A DNA stretch of 64,000 nt, taken from contig CM055905.1 in assembly GCA_029582155.1 (NCBI GenBank), forward strand, positions 9,946,995 through 10,010,994. Reading direction: 5' to 3'. Shown here piece by piece: positions 4,627-64,000 of the stretch. The translations under genes were made by a program, and so were the position numbers. Under the pieces are notes generated by a model. It did not search any database. It had not been told where the DNA came from and was given only the letters and a program-made list of their open reading frames with translations. The stretch's first letter is position 1, and the number at the start of each line of letters is the position of its first letter. This DNA is from Panopea generosa. Taxonomy: Eukaryota > Mollusca > Bivalvia > Adapedonta > Hiatellidae.

Positions 4627-5620
4627 AGAGGGGAGTGGGGTCAGAAGGTTTGTAGACTTTTGCTATAACTTATTTATGTCAATTATACAATGTACAATAG
4701 TGTTAATGTATTTGAAATAAATGTATATGGGACATATTTTGAAAATTTTAGCATGATACATCAACTATTAAGAAAATAAGGCACTATTCAAAGCATAGCA
4801 ATTGGATATGTCGGTGCAAAATGATGACGTATTCAACAAAAAACGACGTCAATATTTTTAACAGGTGATTTTGCATCAAATTTACTGAGTCACTTTTCTC
4901 AAAATACTCTCCTCCATGGGCTATACGTTTTTGCCACCATTTACACCATTCAGTGAACATGTTAACAAAATCAGAAGATGGTATACTGGACACAAAATTA
5001 TGTAAAACATGCTTTGATTCCAATATGCCTTCAAATCGACTTCCCATTTGCTCTTCTTTAATGACTAATTCCCAGCCATCTCAAAAACATTAATTTTGTG
5101 ATATTTAAACACTAGAGACCTTGAAACATTAGATATCGTATATACTTTTGTTTCTCTCTATGAGCAGGTGTATTACCTGATATGGAGCAGCACTTTACTG
5201 AATTGCGGTATTTCGCGTGCTTATCCATTTTCAAGTGCCCCAACGTCATTTTGTTTCAAACAAAATGGCATACTGTAACATCATAATATTGCAGTAATTT
5301 TGCAATGCACATAGTTGGTGTAGACAAGCATACAATACAGCACACATTGATATTTTTTATTTAAAAATAAAACGCGTTTTGGCAACGCTACGCTCGTTTG
5401 AATAGTAGCGGTAGGAAAAAAGCAAAAACTGCGCCGACTACGTAAATCAACGTTTCCATAGTTACTATAGAATATAAACTAATGATGAAAAATTATCAAT
5501 TTTTCGCAATATTATGCAAATATATAGTGGCACATGCCCCCTGAGAATTATAAGAATACAATGATAAATAAAAAAAAGATATGGCAAGTCTACAAACTTT
5601 CTGAACCCCCACCCCCCTCA
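4627..5620 (-). mobile_element. Mariner-like DNA transposon remnant with TIRs
   Basis: The ends form imperfect inverted repeats of about 35 bp: 'gaggggagtggggtcagaag' onward at 4628-4661, and its reverse complement at 5583-5619. Both ends lie next to a TA dinucleotide (4625-4626 and 5621-5622), the usual Tc1/mariner target duplication. Inside, on the minus strand, 4784-5047 encodes the end of a transposase, including the typical WCKWWQKRIAHGGEYFE segment (compare mariner C-termini ending in G-x-YFE). The catalytic core is not visible, so this is an internally deleted, non-autonomous copy. Confidence 0.8.
4784..5047 (-). pseudogene. Mariner-type transposase C-terminal fragment
   Basis: The frame is open for 87 codons and lies inside the TIR-bounded element. 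Residues 30-50 (FTEWCKWWQKRIAHGGEYFE) match the C-terminal signature of mariner transposases. The DDE catalytic part is absent, so the fragment cannot be active alone. The family was assigned from motif memory only. Confidence 0.65.
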
Positions 5621-18807: not shown

Positions 18808-21800
18808 ATCCCCTTATTTAAATGTCGCTGTTCCATTATTTTGGTGACGCTAGCCCTTTTTTTAGTGACGCTGTCGCATTATTTTGTGACGCTAGCACCT
18901 TATTTTGTTGACGCTGTCCCCTTTTTTTGTTTTGTCCCCTTATTTTGATGACACTGTCCCCTTATGTTGGTGACGCTGTCGCCTTATACATGTGCTGCTG
19001 TCCAACGTATTTTAGTGACGCTGTCCCCTTATTTTTGTGATGATGTCCCATTATTTTGTTGACGCTGTCACCTAATTTTTGTGATGATGTCCCATTGTTT
19101 TGTTGACGCTGTCACCTAATTTTAGTGACGCTGTCCCCCATCTCCCCGATTAGCTCAGTCGGTTGCGCGTCTGACTATTAATCCGGGGGTCGTGAGTTCG
19201 AATTCCCCGCCCGGCAACCTTCTCCGTGATGATTGATATACGACATTGTGTCTCATTATCATTCGTCTCTCACCACTGATTCAAGTGGGAAAGTTATCAG
19301 TTATTTGCTGAGACGGGATGTGCTTGAGTACCGGTTAATCACAGGAAACAGTAGTTAGGTTAACTGATCGTCTGTTAGCCATCGATGGCATAAAAAGGAC
19401 GCTAAATATCCAATATCCAATAGTGACGCTGTCCCATTATTTTGGTGACGCTGTCACCTTATTTGGTGACGCTGTACCATTATTTCATTGACGCTGTCTC
19501 CTTATTTTGGTGACGCTGAACCATTATTTCATTGACGCTGTCACCTTATTTGGTAACGCTGTACTATTATTTCACTGACGCTGTCTCCTTATTTTGGTGA
19601 CGCTGTCCCTTTATTTCGGTGGCGTTGTTCCCTTGTTTTGGTGACACTGTCCCATTATTTTGGTGACGCTGTCACCTTATTTTGGTGGCGTTGTTCCCTT
19701 GTTTTGGTGACAATGTCCCATTATTTTACTGACGCTGTCTACTTATTTTGGTGGCTTTGTTCCATTGTTTTGGTGACGCTGTCCCATTATTTTGGTGACG
19801 CTGTCCCTTTATTTTGGTGACACTGTCCCATTATTTTCGTGGCGTTGTTCCCTTATTTTGGTGACGCTGTACCATTATTTCACTGACGCTGTCTCATTAT
19901 TTTCGTGGCGTTGTTCCCCTGTTTTGGTGACGCTGTACCATTATTTCACTGATGCTGTCTCCTTATTTTGATGGCGTTGTTCCCTTGTTTTGGTGACGCT
20001 GTCCCATTATTTTGGTGACGCTGTCCCATTTTTTTGGTGACGCTGTACCATTATTTCACTGACGCTGTCCCATTATTTTCGTGGCGTTGTTCCCTTGTTT
20101 TGGTGACGCTGGACCATTATTTCACTGACGCTGTCCCATTATTTTCGTGGCGTTGTTCCCTTATTTTGGTGACGCTGTACAATTATTTCACTGACGCTGT
20201 CTCCTTATTTTGGTGTCGTTGTTCCCTTGTTTTGGTGACGCTGTCCCATTATTTTGGTGACGCTGTCCCTTTGTTTTGGTGATGCTGTACCATTATTTCA
20301 CTGACGCTGTTTCCTTATTTTGGTAACGCTGTCCCCTTATTTTGGTGACGCTGTCTCCTTATTTTGATGACGCTGTTGACTTATTTTACTGGCGCTTTCC
20401 CCTTAAGGTGGCGATATCCCATTATTTGATGAGGCTGTTCTCTTATTTTGGTGACGCTGTTCCATTATTTTCGTGGCGTTGTTCCCTTGTTTTGGTGACG
20501 CTGTCCCTTTATTTTGGTGGCGTTGTTCCCTTATTTTGGTGACGCTGTCCCTTTATTTTGGTGACGCTGTGCTTTTATTTCGGTGGCGTCGTTCCCTTGT
20601 TTTGGTGACGCTATCCCTTTATTTTGGTGACGCTGTCCCTTTATTTTGGTGGCGTTGTTCCCTTGTTTTGGTGACGCTGTCCCATTATTTTGGTGGCGTT
20701 GTTCCCTTGTTTTGGTGACGCTGTCCCTTTATTTTGGTGGCGTTGTTCCCTTGTTTTGGTGACCCTGTCCCTTTATTTTGGTGATGCTGTCCCTTTATTT
20801 TGATGGGGCTGTTCCCTTGTTTTGGTGACGCTGTCCCTTTATTTTGGTGGCGTTGTTCCCTTGTTTTGGTGACGCTGTCCCATTATTTTGGTGGCGTTGT
20901 TCCCTTGTTATGGTGACGCTGTCCCTTTATTTTGGTGGCGTTGTTCCCTTGTTTTGGTGACGCTGTCCCTTTATTTTGGTGACGCTGTCCCTTTATTTCG
21001 GTGGCGTTGTTCCTTTGTTTTGGTGACGCTGTCCCTTTATTTTGGTGACGCTGTCCCATTATTTTGGTGACGCTGTCCCTTTATTTTGGTGGCGTTGTTC
21101 CCTTGTTTTGGTGACGCTGTCCCTTTATTTTGGTGACGCTGTCCCTTTATTTCGGTGGCGTTGTTCCTTTGTTTTGGTGACGCTGTCCCTTTTTTTGGTG
21201 ACGCTGTCCCTTTATTTCGGTGGCGTTGTTCCCTTGTTTTGGTGACGCTGTCCCTTTATTTTGGTGGCGTTGTTCCCGTTATTTTGGTGACGCTGTCCTT
21301 TTATGGCGTCGTTCCCTTGTTTTGGTGACGCTATTCCTTTATTTTGGTGACGCTGTCCCTTTATTTTGCGGGCGTTGTTCCCTTGTTTTGGTGACGCTGT
21401 CCAATTATTTTCTAGGCGTTGTTCCCTTGTTTTGGTGACGCTGTCCCTTTATTTTGGTGGCGTTGTTCCCTTGTTTTGGTGACCCTGTCCCTTTATTTTG
21501 GTGATGCTGTCCCTTTATTTTGATGGGGTTGTTCCCTTGTTTTGGTGACGCTGTCCCTTTATTTTGGTGGCGTTGTTCCCTTGTTTTGGTGACGCTGTCC
21601 CATTATTTTGGTGGCGTTGTTCCCTTGTTTTGGTGACGCTGTCCCTTTATTTTGGTGGCGTTGTTCCCTTGTTTTGGTGACGCTGTCCCTTTATTATTGT
21701 GGACGCTGTCCCTTTATTTCGGTGGCGTTGTTCATTTGTTTTGGTGACGCTGTCTCTTTATTTTGGTGACGCTGTCCCATTATTTTAGTGACGCTGTCCC

Positions 21801-22205
21801 TTTATTTTGGTGACGTTGTTCCCTTGTTTTGGTGACGCTGTCCCTTTATTTTGGTGACGCTGTCCCTTTATTTCGGTGGCGTTGTTCCTTTATTTTGGTG
21901 ACGCTGTCCCTTTATTTTGGTGACGCTGTCCCTTTATTTCGGTGGCGTTGTTCCCTTGTTTTGGTGACGCTGTCCCTTTATTTTGGTGGCGCTGTCCCTT
22001 TATTTTGGTGGCGTTGTTCCCTTGGCTTGGTGACGCTGTCCTTTTATTTTGGTGACGCTATCCTTTTATTTTGGTGGCGTTGTTCCCTTGTTTTGGTGAA
22101 GCTGTCCCATTATTTTCGTGGCGTTGTTCCCTTGTTTTGGTGACGCTGTCCTTTTATTTTGTAGGCGTTGTTCCCTTGTTTTGGTGACGCTGTCCCTTTA
22201 TTTTG
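18808..22205 (+). repeat. 22-bp minisatellite array, about 3.1 kb of units
   Basis: Units of 22 bp (ttattttggtgacgctgtcc plus ct) alternate, especially after 19.6 kb, with a variant containing ggcgttgttccc. Much of the array therefore has a 44-bp higher-order period. The 5' part is more diverged. Because 66 bp is three units, many spurious frames of the type VTLSHYFGDAVPLFW appear; they are not genes. A SINE (19143-19420) is inserted. Confidence 0.95.
19143..19420 (+). mobile_element. tRNA-derived SINE inserted inside the minisatellite
   Basis: The tRNA head is well preserved ('gattagctcagtcggttgcg' and 'ggtcgtgagttcgaattccc'), and the body matches the other copies. Array sequence 'tagtgacgctgtccc' lies on both sides. 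It may be a target-site duplication, although the array itself would also supply it. Confidence 0.9.
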
Positions 22206-38859: not shown

Positions 38860-41800
38860 ATTGATAAAATAGCACGCGAACAAGGTTTAATATAGGATAG
38901 GAAACTTGCATCTCTTTACTAGATGTTGATAAAATAACATGCGAACAAAGTTTATATATTATAGGAAACTTGCATCTCTGTACTAAATGTTGATAAAATA
39001 GCACGCGAACAACGACTTATATAGGCTAGGAAACTTGCATCTCTCTACTAAATGTTGATAAAATAGCACGCGAACGAGGTTTTTATAAAGGATAGGAAAC
39101 TTGCATCTCTCTACTAAATGTTGATAAGATAACATGCGAACAACGACTTAAACTTGCATCTCTCTATTAAATATTGATAAAATAGCAGGCAAACAAGGTT
39201 TTATATAGGATAGGAAACTTGCATCTCTTTACTAAATGTTGATAAGATAACATGCGAACAACGACTTATATAGGATAGGAAACTTGCATCTCTCTACTAA
39301 ATGTTGATAAAATAGTACGCGAACAAGGTTTTATATAGGATAGGAAACTTGCATCTCTCTACTAAATGTTGATAAATTAACATGCGATCAACGACTTATA
39401 TAGGCTAGGCAACTTGCATCTCTCTACTAAATGTTGATAAGATAACATGCGAACAAGGTTTTATATAGGATAAGAAACTTGCATCTCTCTACTAAATGTT
39501 GATAAAATAGCACGTGAAAAAGGTTTTATATAGGATAGGAAACTTGCATTTCTCTATTAAATGTTGATAAGATAGCACGTGAAAAAAGTTTTATATAGGA
39601 CAGGAAACTTGCATCTATGTACTAAATGTTGATAAGATAATATGCGAACAACGACTTAAATAGGATAGGAAACTTGCATCTCTCTACTAAATGTTGATAA
39701 AATAGTACGCGAACAAGGTTTTATATAGGATAGGAAACTTGCATCTCTTTACTAAATGTTGATAAATTAACATGCGATCAACGACTTATATAGGCTAGGA
39801 AACTTGCATCTCTCTATTAAATGTTGATAAGATAACATGCAAACAAGGTTTTATATAGGATAAGAAACTTGCATCTCTCTACTAAATGTTGATAAAATAT
39901 CACGTGAAAAAGGTTTAATATAGGATAGGAAACTTGCATTTCTCTATTTAATGTTGTTAAAATAGCACGTGAAAAAGGTTTTTATATAGGATTGGAAACT
40001 TGAATCTCTCTACTAAATGTTGATTAAAATAGCACTCAAACAAGGTTTTATATAGGATAGGAAACTTGCATCTCTCTACTAAATGTTGATAAGATAGCAG
40101 GCGACAAGGTTTTATATAGGATAGGGAACTTGCATCTATCTACTAAATGTTGATAAGATAACATGCGAACAATGACTTATATAAGATAGGAAACTTGCAT
40201 CTCTCTATTAAATGTTGATAAAATAGTAGGCGAACATGGACTTATATAGGATAGGAAACTTGCATCTATCTACTAAATGTTGATAAAATAGCATGCCAAC
40301 GACTTATATAGGATAGGAAACTTGCATCTCTCTACTAAATGTTGATTAAATAGCACGCGAACATGGACTTATATGGGATAGGAAACTTGCATCTCTCTAC
40401 TAAATGTTGATAAAATAGCACGCGAACAAGGTTTTATATAGGATAGGAAACTTGCATCTCTGTACTAAATATTGATAAAATAGCACACGAACATGGACTT
40501 ATATAGGATAGGAAACTTGCTTCTCTCTACTAAATGTTGATAAAATAGCACGCGAACAACGACTTATATAAGGAAACTTGCATCTCTCTACTAAATGTTG
40601 ATTAAATAGCACTCAAACAAGGTTTTATATAGGATAGGAAACTTGCATCTCTCTACTAAATGTTGATAAAATAGCACGCGAACATGGACTTATATAGGAT
40701 AGGAAACTTGCATCTCTGTACTAAACGTTGATAAAATAGCACGCGAACATGGACTTATATAGGATAGGAAACTTGCATCTCTGTACAAAATGTTGATAAA
40801 ATAGCACGCGAACATGGACTTATATAGGATAGAAAACTTGCATCTCTGTACTAAATGTTGATAAAATAGCACGCGAACAAGGTTTTATATAGGCTAGGAA
40901 ACTTGCATCTCTCTACTAAATGTTGATAAAATAGTAGGCGAACAAGGTTTTATATAGGATAGGAAACTTGCATCTCTCTACTAAATGTTGATAAAATAGC
41001 ACGCGAACGAGGTTTTTATAAAGGATAGGAAACTTGCATCTCTCTACTAAATGTTGATAAGATAACATGCGAACAACGACTTAAACTTGCATCTCTCTAT
41101 TAAATATTGATAAAATAGCAGGCGAACAAGGTTTTATATAGGATAGGAAACTTGCATCTCTTTACTAAATGTTGATAAGATAACATGCGAACAACGACTT
41201 ATATAGGATAGGAAACTTGCATCTCTCTACTAAATGTTGATAAAATAGTACGCGAACAAGGTTTTTATATAGGATAGGAAACTTGCATCTCTCTACTAAA
41301 TGTTGATAAATTAACATGCGATCAACGACTTTTATAGGCTAGGAAACTTGCATCTCTCTACTAAATGTTGATCAGATAACATGCGAACAAGGTTTTATAT
41401 AGGATAAGAAACTTGCATCTCTCTACTAAATGTTGATAAAATAGCACGTGAAAAAGGTTTTATATAGGATAGGAAACTTGCATTTCTCTATTAAATGTTG
41501 ATAAGATAGCACGTGAAAAAAGTTTATATAGGACAGGAAACTTGCATCTATCTACTAAATGTTGATAAGACATCATGCGAACAACGACTTATATAGGATA
41601 GGAAACTTGCATCTCTCTACTAAATGTTGATAAAATAGTACGCGATCAAGGTTTTATATAGGATAGGAAACTTGCATCTCTCTACTAAATGTTGATAAAT
41701 TAACATGCGATCAACGACTTATATAGGCTAGGAAACTTGCATCTCTCTACTAAATGTTGATAAGATAACATGCGAACAAGGTTTTATATAGGATAAGAAA

Positions 41801-44800
41801 CTTGCATCTCTCTACTAAATGTTGATAAAATAGCACGTGAAAAAGGTTAAATATAGGATAGGAAACTTGCATTTCTCTATTTAATGTTGTTAAAATAGCA
41901 CGTGAAAAAGGTTTTATATAGAATTGGAAACTTGCATCTCTCTACTTAATGTTGATTAAAATAGCACTCAAACAAGGTTTTATATAGGATAGGAAACTTG
42001 CATCTCTCTACTAAATGTTGATAAGATAGCAGGCGACAAGGTTTTATATAGGATAGGAAACTTGCATCTATCTACTAAATGTTGATAAGATAACAAGCGA
42101 ACAATGACTTATATAGGATAGGAAACTTGCATCTCTATATTAAATGTTGATAAAATAGTAGGCGAACATGGACTTATATAGGATAGGAAACTTGCATCTC
42201 TCTACTTAATGTTGATAAAATAGCATGCGAACGACTTATATAGGATAGGAAACTTGCATCTCTCTACTAAATGATGATAAGATAACATGCGAACAAGGTT
42301 TTATATAGGATAGGAAACTTGCATTTCTCTATTAAATGTTGATAAAATAGCACGTGAAAAAGGTTTAATATAGGATAGGAAACTTGCATTTCTCTATTTA
42401 ATGTTGTTAAAATAGCACGTGAAAAAGGTTTTATATAGGATTGGAAACTTGCATCTCTCTACTAAATGTTGATTAAAATAGCACTCAATCAAGGTTTTAT
42501 ATAGGATAGGAAACTTGCATCTCTCTACTAAATGTTGATAAGATAGCAGGCGACAATGTTTTATATAGGATAGGAAACTTGCATCTATCTACTAAATGTT
42601 GATAAGAAAACATGCGAACATTGACTTATATAGGATAGGAAACTTGCATCTCTCTATTAAATGTTGATAAAATAGTAGGCGAACATGGACTTATATAGGA
42701 TAGGAAACTTGCATCTCTCTACTAAATGTTGATAAAATAGCACACGAACATGGACTTATATAGGATAGGAAACTTGCTTCTCTCTACTAAATGTTGATAA
42801 AATAGCATGCGAACAACGACTTATATAAGGAAACTTGCATCTCTCTACTAAATGTTGATTAAATAGCACTCAAACAAGGTTTTATATAGGATAGGAAACT
42901 TGCATCTCTCTACTAAATGTTGATAAAATAGCACGCGAACATGGACTTATATAGGATAGGAAACTTGCATCTCTGTACTAAACGTTGATAAAATAGCACG
43001 CGAACATGGACTTATATAGGATAGGAAACTTGCATCTCTGTACTAAACGTTGATAAAATAGCACGCGAACATGGACTTATATAGGATAGGAAACTTGCAT
43101 CTCTGTACTAAATGTTGATAAAATAGCACGCGAACATGGACTTATATAGGATAGGAAACTTGCATCTCTGTACTAAATGTTGATAAAATAACACGCGAAC
43201 AAGGTTTTATATAGGCTAGGAAACTTGCATCTCTCTACTAAATGTTGATAAAATAGCACGCGAACGAGGTTTTTATAAAGGATAGGAAACTTGCATCTCT
43301 CTACTAAATGTTGATAAGATAACATGCGAACAACAACTTAAACTTGCATCTCTCTATTAAATGTTGATAAAATAGCAGGCGAACAAGGTTTTATATAGGA
43401 TAGGAAACTTGCATCTCTTTACTAAATGTTGATAAAATAGCACGCGAACAAGGTTTTATATAGGATAGGAAACTATTAAATGTTGATAAGATAGCACGTG
43501 AAAAAAGTTTTATATAGGATAGGAAACTTGCATCTCTCTACTAAATGTTGATAAAACAGCACGCGAACATGGATTTATATGGAATAGGAAACTTGCATCT
43601 CTCTACTAAATGTTGATAAATTAACATGCGATCAACGACTTATATAGGCTAGGAAACTTGCATCTCTCTACTAAATGTTGATAAGATAACATGCGAACAA
43701 GGTTTTATATAGGATAAAAAAACTTGCATCTCTCTACTAAATGTTGATAAAATAGCACGTGAAAAAGGTTTTATATAGGATAGGAAACTTGCATTTCTCT
43801 ATTAAATGTTGATAAGATAGCACGTGAAAAAAGTTTTATATAGGACAGGAAACTTGCATCTATCTACTAAATGTTGATAAGATAACATGCGAACAACGAC
43901 TTATATAGGATAGGAAACTTGCATCTCTCTACTAAATGTTGATAAGATAACATGCGAACAACAACTTAAACTTGTATCTCTCTATTAAATGTTGATAAAA
44001 TAGCAGGCGAACAAGGTTTTATATAGGATAGGAAACTTGCATCTCTTTACTAAATGTTGATAAAATAGCACGCGAACAAGGTTTTATATAGGATAGGAAA
44101 CTATTAAATGTTGATAAGATAGCACGTGAAAAAAGTTTTATATAGGATAGGAAACTTGCATCTCTCTACTAAATGTTGATAAAACAGCACGCGAACATGG
44201 ATTTATATGGAATAGGAAACTTGCATCTCTCTACTAAATGTTGATAAATTAACATGCGATCAACAACTTATATAGGCTAGGAAACTTGCATCTCTCTACT
44301 AAATGTTGATAAGATAACATGCGAACAAGGTTTTATATAGGATAAAAAAACTTGCATCTCTCTACTAAATGTTGATAAAATAGCACGTGAAAAAGGTTTT
44401 ATATAGGATAGGAAACTTGCATTTCTCTATTAAATGTTGATAAGATAGCACGTGAAAAAAGTTTTATATAGGACAGGAAACTTGCATCTATCTACTAAAT
44501 GTTGATAAGATAACATGCGAACAACGACTTATATAGGATAGGAAACTTGCATCTCTCTACTAAATGTTGATAAGATAACATGCGAACAACAACTTAAACT
44601 TGTATCTCTCTATTAAATGTTGATAAAATAGCAGGCGAACAAGGTTTTATATAGGATAGGAAACTTGCATCTCTTTACTAAATGTTGATAAAATAGCACG
44701 CGAACAAGGTTTTATATAGGATAGGAAACTATTAAATGTTGATAAGATAGCACGTGAAAAAAGTTTTATATAGGATAGGAAACTTGCATCTCTCTACTAA

Positions 44801-47086
44801 ATGTTGATAAAACAGCACGCGAACATGGATTTATATGGAATAGGAAACTTGCATCTCTCTACTAAATGTTGATAAATTAACATGCGATCAACGACTTATA
44901 TAGGCTAGGAAACTTGCATCTCTCTACTAAATGTTGATAAGATAACATGCGAACAAGGTTTTATATAGGATAAAAAAACTTGCATCTCTCTACTAAATGT
45001 TGATAAAATAGCACGTGAAAAAGGTTTTATATAGGATAGGAAACTTGCATTTCTCTATTAAATGTTGATAAGATAGCACGTGAAAAAAGTTTTATATAGG
45101 ACAGGAAACTTGCATCTATCTACTAAATGTTGATAAGATAACATGCGAACAACGACTTATATAGGATAGGAAACTTGCATCTCTCTACTAAATGTTGATA
45201 AAATAGTACGCGAACAAGGTTTTATATAGGATAGGAAACTTGCATCTCTCTACTCAATGTTGATAAATTAACATGCGATCAACGACTTATATAGGCTAGG
45301 AAACTTGCATCTCTCTACTAAATGTTGATAAGATAACATGCGAACAAGGTTTTATATAGGATAAGAAACTTGCATCTCTCTACTAAATGTTGATAAAATA
45401 GCACGTGAAAAAGGTTTTATATAGGATAGGAAACTTGCATTTCTCTATTAAATGTTGATAAGATAGCACGTGAAAAAAGTTTTATATAGGACAGGAAACT
45501 TGCATCTATCTACTAAATGTTGATAAGATAACATGCGAACAACGACTTATATAGGATAGGAAACTTGCATCTCTCTACTAAATGTTGATAAAATAGAACG
45601 CGAACAAGGTTTTATATAGGATAGGATACTTGCATCTCTCTACTAAATGTTGATAAATTAACATGCGATCAACGACTTATATAGGCTAGGAAACTTGCAT
45701 CTCTCTACTAAATGTTGATAAGACAACATGCGAACAATGTTTTATATAGGATAAGAAACTTGCATCTCTCTACTAAATGTTGATAAAATAGCACGTGAAA
45801 AAGGTGAAAAATAGGATAGGAAACTTGCATTTCTCTATTTAATGTTGTTAAAATAGCACGTGAAAAAGGTTTTATATAGGATTGGAAACTTGCATCTCTC
45901 TACTAAATGTTGATTAAAATAGCACTCAAACAAGGTTTTATATAGGATAGGAAACTTGCATCTCTTTACTAAATGTTGATAAGATAGCAGGCGACAAGGT
46001 TTTATATAGGATAGGAAACTTGCATCTATCTACTAAATGTTGATAAGATAACAAGCGAACAATGACTTATATAGGATAGGAAACTTGCATCTCTCTATTA
46101 AATGTTGATAAAATAGTAGGCGAACATGGACTTATATAGGATAGGAAACTTGCATCTCTCTACTAAATGTTGATAAAATAGCATGCGAACGACTTATATA
46201 GGATAGGAAACTTGCTTCCCTCTACTAAATGTTGATAAAATAGCACACGAACAACGACTTATATAAGGAAACTTGCATCTCTCTACTAAATGTTGATTAA
46301 ATAGCACTCAAACAAGGTTTTATATACGATAGGAAACTTGCATCTCTCTACTAAATGTTGAAATAGCACGCGAACACAGACTTTTATAGGATAGGAAACT
46401 TGCATCTCTGTACTAAACGTTGATAAAATAGCACGCGAACATGGACTTATATAGGATAGGAAACTTGCATCTCTGTACTAAATGTTGATAAAATAGCACG
46501 CGAACATGGACTTATATAGGATAGGAAACTTGCATCTCTGTACTAAATGTTGATAAAATAGCACGCAAACAAGGTTTTATATAGGATAGGAAACTTGCAT
46601 TTCTCTATTAAATGTTGATAAGATAGCACGTGAAAAAAGTTTTATATAGGATAGGAAACTTGCATCTCTCTACTAAATGTTGATAAAACAGCACGCGAAC
46701 ATGGACTTATATGGGATAGGAAACTTGCATCTCTCTACTAAATGTTGATAAAATAGCATGCAAACAAGGTTTTATATAGGATAGGAAACTTGCATCTCTC
46801 TATTAAATATTGATAAAATAGCACGCAAACATGGACTTAAATAGGATAGGAAACTTGCTTCTCTATACTAAATGTTGATAAAATAGCACGCGAACAACGA
46901 CTTATATAAGGAAACTTGCATCTCTCTACTAAATGTTGATAAAATAGCACTCAAACAAGGTTTTATATAGGATAGGAAACTTGCATCTCTTTACTAAATG
47001 TAGAAAAAATAGCACACTAACAAGGTTTTATATAGGATAAGAAACTTGCATTTCTCTACTAAATGTTGATAAAATAACATACAAAC
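38860..47086 (+). repeat. 65-bp satellite array, about 126 copies, with higher-order repeats
   Basis: The unit starts aggataggaaacttgcatct and continues with ctctactaaatgttgataaaa, then a variable 'tagcacgcgaacaaggtttt' plus atat; total 65 bp. Unit subtypes (cacgtgaaaaa, catgcgaacaacgactt, catggactt) are arranged in longer periods. A 628-bp block is repeated three times from about 43.3 kb, and a distinctive shortened unit recurs 1933 and 2257 bp apart. Minus-strand frames in it are artefacts. Confidence 0.97.
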
Positions 47087-53100: not shown

Positions 53101-56100
53101 TACAAATACTTAATAAAAGTCGTTTACAAACAATGACATCAATTTATAATTCGAATTGTTCACAAGGAAACTTGCCCGAGACATCTCACCCCTGTAAAAC
53201 ACGAGATAGACAATGTTATCTATTTCACCAACATTTAACTTATATACTTAAAAACCTAACTTAGTTTTAACTGGTTATTTACCTTATATATGATCAATAT
53301 CAATGAAATAATATGCAGTTTTACTGGAACCAGTCTAAAATCATGATCACCAGACTGCTTTTCTTAGACTTTAGTTTTTAAGTATTCAAGTATATGTTGG
53401 AGCCTAGTAGGCAAGACATGCGGCACATAATAGGCTACTTACGTTTTACCACCAAGCGTAACTGTATTGCGAACATGTGCCAGAACTACAAGTCGCTCCA
53501 ACACTTTGACCCGAATAGACTTCCACTTTTCAGGTGGTAACAGGTGCGCAGCCATCACAGACCAATATAACGGACCATCAGTCTGAAATGTTCATCAACA
53601 TCAAATTACAATATGGGAGAAAACAGACAGGTAATTAGCAAAGGATAAATGTATGACATCACAACTCTGGTAAAATGAATTGAATAAAAAATCCACAACC
53701 TATGGGTGAATGTTCAAATCATATTTTATCTATCATGTAGGTTAAAACACAATACTCTGAAAACTGTAAGGAGGTGCCTGGAGACATATATTCAAGACAG
53801 ACAAGGTTAGCTCAGTTGGTAGTGTGTCTGACTATCAATCCAGGGGTGTCGTGAGTTCAAATCCCTGCCTTGCCACAGTCTATGAGATGACCAATATAAA
53901 ATTTATATATAATTAATTTTAACAATAATATTCAAAGTCTTACCTCAAAACAATTGTCCAACCATTTGTCCTTTGCAGTATCAAGGAAATTGTTCATATT
54001 TTTCTCCTCTCTAGACATTGACCTCGTCCTGAATAAAAGCAAATGTCAGAATAGAACTTTTGGTCATATTGATACAAAAAGTAAAACTCAGACTACACAA
54101 GAAAGAAAGTATACTTAATAAAATATGAAAAAAATCAATAACTTATTATAAAGTATATCCTCCAACTAGATGTTAATCAACAACAGCTACAATTCACTTT
54201 TACACATTTTTCCAAATATATTTTAATGACTTTTTCAATTTTATTCAAATACATGTTATTAATACACTTGTAAATATAAATAAATATTAAAATTAAATGC
54301 ATCAACTCGTAACATCCCAATATAAGATGCATATTACTCTGTCTGCCTCTACCCCCACTGTCCTCACTGAATGTACTTACGTGTTAATAACATACAGAGC
54401 CAAATGGATGATGTAAGGTATAAGATGCATATTACTCTGTCTGCCTCTACCCCCACTGTCCTCACTGAATGTACTTACGTGTTAATAACATACAGAGCCA
54501 TATGCATGATGTAAGGTATAAGATGCATATTACTCTGTCTGCCTCCATCCCCACTGTCCTCACTGAATGTACTTACGTGTTAATAACATACAGAGCCAAA
54601 TGGATGATGTAAGGTATAAGATGCATATTACTCTGTCTGCCTCCATCCCCACTGTCCTCACTGAATGTACTTACGTGTTAATAACATACAGAGCCATATG
54701 CATGATGTAAGGTATAAGATGCATATTACTCTGTCTGCCTCCATCCCCACTGTCCTCACTGAATGTACTTACGTGTTAATAACATACAGAGCCAAATGGA
54801 TGATGTAAGGTATAAGATGCATATTACTCTGTCTGCCTCCATCTCCACTGTCCTCACTGAATGTACTTACGTGTTAATAACATACAGAGCCATATGCATG
54901 ATGTAAGGTATAAGATGCATATTGCTCTGTCTGCCTCCACCCCCACTGTCCTCACTGAATGATCTCTCCTCAGCAAACCTCAGTAACAACAGCTTCAGGT
55001 CGTGGACATTGAACGGGTAGCTCGGATCTCGCAGTCCAGTACATTCCTGAAGGTATGTGTTGTGCCTGAAATAGACAGGATATTATTGGTGGATCACATA
55101 ATGATAATTTCTAATACCCTCAAACCTCCCCCACCACAGATAATCAAAAAATATTTTGAAAAATGCAGATGCTAGAGGGAACACAAGCTCAAATAATGTA
55201 TATTTTGGCAAATCAAGGACCACAATACTGACAGTAATTATTGATTTATGCCAGTTCAATAAATTGTATGAGCTATCAAGGTTATACAACCACTGTGAAA
55301 GTTTGGAAGATCCAATGAAAAATGCGGGTGCATGATAAATGCACACACAATTACAGTTAATGGGCGGACGACTGTCAGACGGATGATGGACACAAGATGA
55401 TCAGAATAGCTTGCTTTGAGCTTTGTTCAGGCGAACTCAAAATAGATCATGGTCATTATATATTTTTAATATTATTATTATATAAAATATGGCCCAACTT
55501 AAATAATTACAAGAAGGCACAGATGGGTGCACAAATCATGTAGCTTTGGACAGAGGTTTAAATCTAAAATTAACCACACATTTGTTTACTCTACCACCAC
55601 GTCATGTGGCATACCACTTTATTACACAAGAGTTCCAGAAATGCCCCTATGGTATAATCTGAACTCTTAGTGCAGGAAAGGGGTTGGATAACCAAGTTAA
55701 ATTTACTATCCCTTCCCCATTTTCTTTTCCAGCAAGTAGTTATTGTTTAAAATTTAGTGTCATTTTTTTATGCCATCGAGGGAACAAAGGATCATTTAAC
55801 CCAATCTTTCCTAGAATTGTGAAAAGGTTAACCAGATCTCAAGCACTCCCATCTCTACAAGTAACTAATAACTTATCCACTTAAATCAGCGGTGAGAGAA
55901 GAATGACAATGAGATAATTTCCAACTATCTATACCAGTTTTACCCAGGAAACACTCAATAGCAATTCACAACAGCTCTGAGCTTATTTCACAATCCAGCT
56001 AAACAAGATTAGTATAAACCAAATGATGACATAAAACATGTACAAGTACATACCTGGCCAGGCATGTAGCGAAGGCCGACTCCTGCACCTGTGACCCCCA

Positions 56101-57875
56101 CAGTGGTAGCAGACCATTGCACTTGGTGTTGGCGTTCTGTAATGCAGCACTCTCCCACTCCTCCCTACCTCGAGCATGTCTGCAAACAGCAATACAGTAA
56201 TTTTACATGTATTTTCCTTTAAATATCAATAGACACTGTATAATTTGTATAATCTTTTACTTCTTAATGTTGAGAATATTTTAACCACTACACTGACTGA
56301 TCTCCTCATATACCTAAGGGAGTATATCAGGAAAAAACACTTTGTAATTGTTGCAAAAAAAGAGAAAATAATTATTAATGATAAAAAGCATCTCATTATT
56401 ATTAATATATAAAATTTGAATGGTTTTGTATGTCAACTCCACCAAAACGTGACATAATCAATATTTAAATCGGAGTCGTAAACTTGAAACAAAATCATTA
56501 ATAAAATACCTTTATATACATATTATAAAACTGTTAATGTCTCATAGAAAAACCATAGTTTGATAATGTGGCTGTGAAATTCACACTTCATTTCTTTCAG
56601 TAAAATTCTTACAACTAAAATTCTCTTAACAAATACCCAAAAACTTTTGGTTGAAACAAGAACAAAATTCTCTTCCATTTGCGACAAGTTTGAAAGCAAA
56701 TAAAAAAGTATTTCAGGTAAAACTAGATAGAACTGTATATGAATATAAATAAACAACTTTGGCTAAAACATATCTTTTTTCAATTTGTGCAATGTTTTTC
56801 AAAGCTCTGTTACCTTAACACCCCACAACATTGAATTTTGTCTGTTCGATGTCTTTATATTCAAAGTTTTCTTATTAAATAAAATTCTTTCACAACTGCC
56901 ATATAGCAAACAAATAGTTTAAATGTATTATAACTCAATATATCAAAATTGCATAATTCATTTAAACGCAGTGTTAAGCTTAATACATTTAATGAACATT
57001 TAGCTCATTTTTATGCTATCGAGTTAATTTAACTACTCTATCTGGGGGTCCTGGGCTGCATTTCACAAAAAAAACTTACGACAAAAATCGTCGTAAACGT
57101 AAACCAACAATTATTCATAATATCTTTTATTTTCATCCAAATGAAGCCAAGTTGGCTCATATCATGCTGAAATTTTTTTTTTTTTCTGAAAGTACAATCA
57201 TTTTAAATGTTGTTCAAAATATGAACACACAAAGGAGAAATTGTCAAATTAACGTATGTTGATTTTTATGTTAAGTTGTTTTGTGAAATGCAGTCCTGGA
57301 AGGTTAACCAGTACTCATACACACCCATCTATGCAAGTAAGTGATAATTTTCCCAATTGAATCAGCAGTGCTAAATGACAATGAGAGGTGATGTTGTATG
57401 TCAATCATCACAGAGACTGTGGCTGGGCAGAGAATCGAACTCACAACCCCTGGATTGATCGTCAGATACGACACCTGCTGTGCTAACCTTTGCTTTGAAA
57501 AACTTGGCCCTGGTGAAGGTATAAAGCAAATTCTCAAAGGTGCTGATATGATGTTACCTGACGGCCGCTGTATGACAGTCGACGTGAATCACGTTGAAGT
57601 GTGACACAGTACAGTATCCTGCTGTCTTCCTCTGCTTGTTCTCGTACTCATCCAGATTACATCTCTTGGTGAACGTGTAGATGGCCAGGACCTTCTGGGG
57701 CTGGTACCTGTATCCCTCCCGACATATACAGCACGTCAGGCCAGTCTCCTCCTTTATCTCCTCCATCTGTTTTAGTACAGGGGAATTCACGGTCACCTGG
57801 CCTCTCTCATTTGTCTGAAAATTATAGATAAGAAAGGGTTTTTATTGGAAAGTCTCTCTATTATAGAGATTGACT

Positions 57876-62556: not shown

Positions 62557-63199
62557 CTGAAAAAAAATAATACAAAAATTCTGAAGATCTCTGCATTCTA
62601 CCTTTACTTAATTATCACTTCATATACGTTAGAAGAAGGTATCTGCACAAAAATACTTCTTCCAACCTTTCCTCAACCCCTGACTGGACATTAAGTGCTT
62701 ACTCAGAAGCTCTCAAGTAGACGAGTGTTTCAATGGTTACACACTTGACTTGGTGATCCAGGGACATGTGTTTGACTCAACTAGACCTATCACTGAAGGT
62801 GATGAATACCCCCGAATGCCGCCATGACAGAAAATGGTTAACCATTGTATGAAGTTTTATTAAATTATATCCAATAGTTTTAAAGTTATGCTCCAGACAA
62901 AACAAATTCTTAATAAAAGAGAATGTTATGGATTGAGTTTTTTGTATTGTTAATTTTTTTATGGTTTTGTTAAAATTAAAAACGGTCTTTTTAATTATTG
63001 TGCAGTGTACAAGCTTTCATGGCAATCAATAAATGTTATACTTTTTCGAGTTATGTTGAGGGACAACAATTTTATGGATAAGAAACAAACAAGAGCACTA
63101 GGAATACAATATCGAACCTGCTTTGCTCGAACTCCATGTATTCATCAACTTGGTTCTTTCATGAACTTTATTAAACTGTTATCACTGATGGCTTTAAAA
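62557..63199. other. UBR4 intron, SINE-like head
   Basis: 62715-62790 resembles a decayed tRNA-like SINE head. A diverged copy of the 147-bp repeat unit is detectable near 62830-62905. Confidence 0.45.
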
Positions 63200-64000
63200 G
63201 TACTTTAAAAGTACTGCACCAGACAAGGGAAATATATCAAAGGGCAATAACTCTGTAATTAGCAAGAATAGAGTTATGTTTCTTGTACACTGCACTTCCT
63301 CTCATTATATTCTACCATTGTATGAAGTTTGATGAAATTCCATCCAGTACTTTAAAAGTAATGCTCCGGTCAAGGGAAATATATCAAAGGGCAATAACTC
63401 TGTAATTAGCAAGAATAGAGTTATGTTTCCTGTACACTGCACTTCCTGTCATTATATTCTACCATTGTATGAAGTTTGATGAAATTCCATCCAGTACTTT
63501 AAAAGTAATGCTCCGGACAAGGGAAATATATCAAAGGACAATAACTCTGTAATTAGCAAGAATAGAGTTATGTTTCTTGTACACTGCACTTCCTCTCATT
63601 ATATTCTACCATTGTATGAAGCTTGATGAAATTCCATCCGGTACTTTTCAAGTTATGCTCCGGACAAGAAAAAATATCAAAGGGCAATAACTCTGTAATT
63701 AGCAAGAATAGAGTTATGTTTCTTGTACACTGCACTTCCTCTCATTATATTCTACCATTGTATGAAGTTTGATGAAATTCCATCCAGTACTTTAAAAGTA
63801 ATGCTCCAGACAAGGGAAATATATCAAAGGGCAATAACTCTGTAATTAGCAAGAATAGAGTTATGTTTCTTGTACACTACACTTCCTGTCATTATATTCT
63901 ACCATTGTATGAAGTTTGATGAAATTCCATCCAGTACTTTAAAAGTAATGCTGCGGACAAGAGAAATATATCAAAGGGCAATAACTCTGTAATTAGCAAG
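63200..64000 (+). repeat. 147-bp tandem array, more than five copies, runs off window
   Basis: 'agggcaataactctgtaatt' recurs at 63241, 63388, 63535, 63681, 63828 and 63975, spacing 147 (once 146). Units are nearly identical. The unit resembles common bivalve dispersed repeats ('cttgtacactgcacttcctc', 'gaagtttgatgaaattccat'). Confidence 0.95.

Follow-up and report, generated by a model that had tools for sequence, protein, structure and literature searches.

A 98-bp tandem array across a predicted exon–intron boundary of UBR4 in Panopea generosa presents six identical splice donors in a row

The window analysed here, a stretch of 64,000 nucleotides from the Panopea generosa genome, carries the 3′ part of the UBR4 gene on its minus strand. 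A 92-residue peptide encoded by a 195-nt exon and the exon that follows it corresponds to human UBR4 4940-5031 (E 7e-39), and the 195-nt exon alone aligns with residues 4940-5003, within the catalytic E3 module. The Pfam profile PF13764 (E3_UbLigase_R4) matches the host exons with 120.8 bits (E 7e-35), exceeding the cut-off of 23. Exon edges were placed by homology, reading frame and splice consensus, and the name "exon 8" for the 195-nt exon follows the numbering of an earlier sequence-only reading of this DNA, not an established exon number. The predicted anatomy around this exon comprises:

56054..56179, minus strand: upstream UBR4 exon ("exon 7"), 126 nt, ending in CLAR with the donor CAG/gtatgt; matched by Pfam PF13764; joins exon 8 in frame with no stop
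54871..55065, minus strand: UBR4 "exon 8", 195 nt, entered and left in phase 2; acceptor tctatttcag; native donor CAC/gtaagta at 54870; placed by homology and splice scores
54029..54870, minus strand: intron 8, 842 nt (299 nt once the array is subtracted); 352 nt separate the last donor from exon 9
53944..54028, minus strand: UBR4 "exon 9", 85 nt; acceptor tgcttttattcag/GACGAGG

The introns on either side of exon 8 measure 988 and 842 nt. Exons 7-9 can be spliced together without a stop, and the stretches matching exons 10-12 are open; the last exon was not placed.

At the 3′ end of exon 8, TRF reports a tandem array at 54321-54961 with a period of 98, 6.5 copies, 97% matches, 0% indels and a score of 1191. 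The unit joins the 91 terminal bases of the UBR4 exon to 7 intron bases, and six full copies are followed on the minus strand by a partial copy of 53 bases. The sequence-only reading had described just such a unit repeated within the intron, and both TRF and a readout of the individual copies bear it out. Copies start on the minus strand in exact 98-base steps (54961, 54863, 54765, 54667, 54569, 54471 and 54373). In its head-to-tail order, unit length and high identity the array is a minisatellite, and it spans the predicted exon–intron boundary. A chance repeat was rejected on the TRF result, the copy-by-copy readout and whole-genome searches with the exon or the unit, which, among the best candidates scored, returned one match besides the array, on contig C7. 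The elements of the array are:

54864..54961, minus strand: copy 1, the 91 end bases of the true exon plus gtaagta; version B; Gly-Gly-Gly-Gly kept
54766..54863, minus strand: copy 2, in the intron; version A with Asp for the second Gly; GT of its donor at 54772
54668..54765, minus strand: copy 3, in the intron; version B with Asp for the second Gly; GT of its donor at 54674
54570..54667, minus strand: copy 4, in the intron; version A with Asp for the second Gly; GT of its donor at 54576
54472..54569, minus strand: copy 5, in the intron; version B with Asp for the second Gly; GT of its donor at 54478; equal to copy 3
54374..54471, minus strand: copy 6, in the intron; version A with Arg for the third Gly; GT of its donor at 54380
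54321..54373, minus strand: partial copy 7, 53 bases, without a donor; third Gly to Arg
54856, 54758, 54660, 54562, 54464 and 54366, minus strand: first bases of the array AGs

All six full copies have the same donor, CACGTAAGTA (CAC/gtaagta), in keeping with the six identical gtaagta sites noted previously. The positions then assigned to them (54871, 54773 and so on) hold for the last exonic bases; the GT dinucleotides start one base lower, at 54870, 54772, 54674, 54576, 54478 and 54380. In the native donor the base preceding GT is C, not G. All five decoy donors are intact and hence usable in principle. The donor of each full copy scores 4.3, equal to the native donor, and ranks 7th of 15 in the gene, where the 15 donors and 15 acceptors were chosen among candidate sites at exons recognised by Pfam homology or translation. 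This set includes the exon in question and a doubtful donor at 67407 (score 0.6), and it lacks two exons that could not be placed, the last one and another due near profile positions 302-325. A weaker donor-like site, CA/gtgagg (score 0.4), lies within the exon at window position 54955 and recurs in every array unit.

The full copies alternate in the order B A B A B A, a pattern that the sequence-only reading had not reported: ATGCATATG occurs in copies 1, 3 and 5, and ATCCATTTG in copies 2, 4 and 6. Strict alternation of three and three is expected by chance in 2 of 20 arrangements. Copies 3 and 5 are identical, and copies 2 and 4 show a single difference. Because the two versions alternate along the array, it probably grew in 196-bp steps, that is, in two-unit blocks. 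Among the full copies there are six distinct differences, four of them residue-changing and two silent, in line with random mutation, for which about 73-77% of substitutions are expected to be of the first sort and 19-24% of the second. Compared by eye, the C7 match, a single-copy outgroup, has G, T and A at unit positions 22, 65 and 69, respectively; at position 38 it seems to carry T, but this site adjoins an insertion and is uncertain. Since the outgroup has G at position 22, the Gly-to-Asp change looks derived in the intronic copies. At position 65 (Met/Ile), both human UBR4 and the C7 fragment have Ile.

The outgroup sequence belongs to a broken UBR4 fragment at C7:1072589-1073014, in which exon 8 sequence and perhaps 14-16 bases of exon 7 stand with no intron between them. 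Its matching part, C7:1072743-1072951, is 80% identical over the exon and 74% over the unit, and contains stops and an insertion inside the exon part. With about 14-16 aligned bases of exon 7 to go by, the fragment may tentatively be taken as intronless across the exon 7/8 join. It is flanked by 30-nt inverted repeats that are 93% complementary, and the flank bearing one arm matches at least 44 other places (40 of 882 candidates scored), some of them clustered on C14. Given so many matches to the arm-bearing flank, the UBR4 segment at C7 may have been captured by a mobile element. A partial second UBR4 copy, introns included, lies 3.5 Mb away at C12:6488290-6494607; among the matches listed, its blocks show 78-92% identity to the stretch 61112-66822 (numbered from window base 1), and its PF13764 hits are confined to profile positions 41-378.

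Other repeats occur in the neighbourhood. A 147-bp tandem repeat at window 63199-64000 extends beyond the window. Arrays related to it are found around 92 kb and 135 kb, as counted from window base 1, and next to the partial second copy of UBR4 at C12:6.48 Mb. Further large tandem arrays occupy window 38861-47076 (65-bp unit, 128 copies) and 19423-22205 (22-bp unit, 127 copies). The next intron contains at 53805-53878 a tRNA-like sequence, named for motifs seen by eye that we take to be A-box- and B-box-like; ARAGORN, run with the bacterial code, called no tRNA at 53805-53878, and the element is perhaps a tRNA-derived SINE.

Within the part of exon 8 that is repeated lies a glycine-rich loop, which reads SADTGGGGRESN in human UBR4 (GGGG) and SADCRGGGRDSN in plant BIG (RGGG). 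The second and third Gly are both retained in the true exon, human UBR4 and plant BIG. Although the reading frame is open in all six full copies and the changes are few, the second or third Gly is altered in each of the six intronic copies (five full, one partial), and only the true exon among the seven copies keeps all four. By alignment, the first two Gly correspond to human Gly4979 and Gly4980, which are located near ubiquitin Ile36; the double mutant Gly4979Ser Gly4980Ser is strongly impaired in autoubiquitination, an effect that the excerpt describes for the pair and not for a single Gly (PMC10873205, in excerpt). The Gly changes, of which at least two are independent, would fit copies that go unread. 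Retention of GGGG is by itself no proof of constraint, because the broken C7 fragment has it intact as well.

We propose, with a probability of roughly three in four, that the array is a young, neutral and silent intronic minisatellite and that the native donor at 54870 is in use. A tandem duplication would have captured the last 91 exon bases and the first 7 intron bases of UBR4 and would then have expanded to the present array of six full units plus a partial seventh, probably adding two units at a time in the later rounds. Exon 8 would retain its own acceptor, which the spliceosome would pair with the nearest strong donor, the native one. The five further donors would sit in the intron and be spliced out along with it, and the array copies would drift free of coding constraint. 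The silent reading is favoured because the native donor is the upstream-most and the sole one whose direct use yields the full protein, the others needing an extra splice. Among the three readings offered on the sequence alone (silent array, decoy donors, cassette exons) it is also the one that fits best.

Published data on donor choice point the same way, if they apply to this species. Because the flanking introns of 988 and 842 nt exceed about 250 nt, the intron length at which human genes switch to exon definition (PMC9225289, in excerpt), exon definition is suggested for exon 8. The same excerpt describes five human minigenes with two identical CAG/guaagu donors and 365-nt flanking introns, in which the upstream donor was exclusively used. 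For natural near-equal donor pairs it gives an upstream preference in 60% of events overall, and an upstream preference in the long-long class too. Two points count against the silent reading: before control for strength, the preference was about 60% downstream, and classical in-vitro work, also mentioned in the excerpt, favoured the donor closest to the downstream acceptor.

An unlikely alternative is that the extra donors are partly used and act as poison sites. Donors 2-6 would stretch the exon to 293-685 nt, and the prior claim that unspliced extension stops is correct: all five extensions end at once in ...INT-stop, and since further exon junctions follow the stop, NMD would presumably cut UBR4 output according to copy number. 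The last donor used alone was considered too, and its product ends in the same ...INT-stop. The identity of the six donors, their near-identical local context and their scores equal to that of the native site all speak for such use, and to this extent the proposed decoys stand as real-looking donors. The published identical-donor data nevertheless predict that the native upstream donor wins through exon-centric proximity (PMC9225289, in excerpt), and the exon would have to reach the lengths given above. Selection on the donors is undetected, since none of the six differences among copies falls in a donor, an outcome with a chance of about 0.56 (9 of 98 positions); purifying selection preserving the donors was considered as well, and the comparison has no power for it because the differences are few. 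UBR4 is described as an essential ubiquitin ligase (PMC7618180, in excerpt). Here the gene looks alive, its exons joining without a stop, and any UBR4 loss must therefore be tolerated. A stronger form, in which each added identical donor diverts more transcripts to the stop, so that UBR4 output declines as units are gained and differs from one individual to another, is very unlikely.

It is highly improbable that the copies serve as in-frame cassette exons, with a donor paired to an AG at least two units on and each exon adding 28 residues to the UZI helical domain. The arithmetic behind this idea is sound: the unit divides into 14 + 84 bases, and all seven cassette paths tried preserve the frame and are free of stops, adding 28 or 56 residues. 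Frame preservation is unremarkable, though, because the exonic part of the unit has seven AGs and four of them would preserve it. In favour of acceptor use, the sequence TTAAC, seen by eye 17 nt upstream of each array AG, resembles what we take to be the yUnAy branch-site consensus, and with a matrix built from the gene itself the AG scores -1.0, above one of the 15 gene acceptors (-1.2 to 11.5). With a matrix of generic base frequencies it scores -4.2, below all 15 (-2.0 to 8.5), and 49% of the 9,283 AGs on the minus strand across 170,805 bases score at least as well (20% with the own-gene matrix). The poor pyrimidine tract had already been held against it, and its 7 pyrimidines in 16 positions tie with the poorest of the 15 acceptors. 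As an acceptor the array AG thus appears weak, not impossible. Joins are restricted too, since adjacent units leave an intron of 14 nt, shorter than a usual intron, and only units two or more apart are joinable; the closeness of donor and AG would moreover make U1 and U2AF binding mutually exclusive. In true tandem exon duplications every copy has its own acceptor and intron. The acceptor of exon 8 lies outside the repeat unit, so the intronic copies have no copied acceptor, whereas a donor is present in all six full copies and absent from the partial seventh. A human UBR4 isoform does carry a 21-residue insertion elsewhere in the UZI domain (PMC10873205, in excerpt); the segments added here would bring Gly-to-Asp or Gly-to-Arg changes into a loop important for human activity. 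Functional cassette exons were rejected as the main reading on the Gly changes, the splice scores, the joins and the human UBR4 literature, the weak AG, the 14-nt gap and the lost Gly all counting against the earlier suggestion. Finally, tandem repeats can come out at the wrong size, and the array could be an assembly artefact or have the wrong length. This is very unlikely for a repeat of 641 bp, short relative to long reads if the assembly used them, with differences in a regular order (B A B A B A) and others confined to single copies, and in an assembly of 39 contigs for 1.47 Gb.

Six identical donors in near-identical local context, spaced at 98 nt and sharing one acceptor within a conserved gene, amount to a natural experiment on 5′ splice-site choice. 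The exon-centric proximity rule, drawn from human genes and minigenes (PMC9225289, in excerpt), becomes testable here without a construct. Should distal donors be used, expression would be set by the length of a minisatellite; should they go unused, the locus shows how safely a strong donor can multiply inside an intron.

No description of naturally arrayed identical donors was recognised among the titles and abstract openings covered, which does not imply that none exists. Several known systems share individual features with the UBR4 array. Internal tandem repeats at exon–intron boundaries of human duplicated genes (PMC2812944, in excerpt) are likewise minisatellites; they can span the edge of an exon and make exons or introns longer, and some coding intron repeats among them have units of 62-126 bp. 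Those human repeats come with transcript support and variation between paralogs, whereas the UBR4 array is known from DNA alone and the other UBR4 pieces found are the partial copy 3.5 Mb off and the broken C7 fragment. Tandem duplication also relocates real splice signals in potato (PMC4974935, in excerpt) and in Drosophila, where the cases lie within coding exons (PMC2891723, in excerpt). In potato, a duplication across an intron–exon boundary copied the acceptor side with its branch site and pyrimidine tract and created a new, spliced intron; the UBR4 array differs in that only the donor side is copied, several times over, and known as sequence alone. The designed minigenes (PMC9225289, in excerpt) resemble it in that identical GTAAGT donors compete behind one acceptor between long introns, but they contain two engineered donors, whereas UBR4 has six natural ones with CAC rather than CAG before the GT. 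Tandem exon duplications with alternative cassettes share the frame-keeping repeated coding units, yet the UBR4 unit is without a copied acceptor. The array is thus one of a known broad kind, the tandem repeats that span an exon boundary, here with the donor side multiplied.
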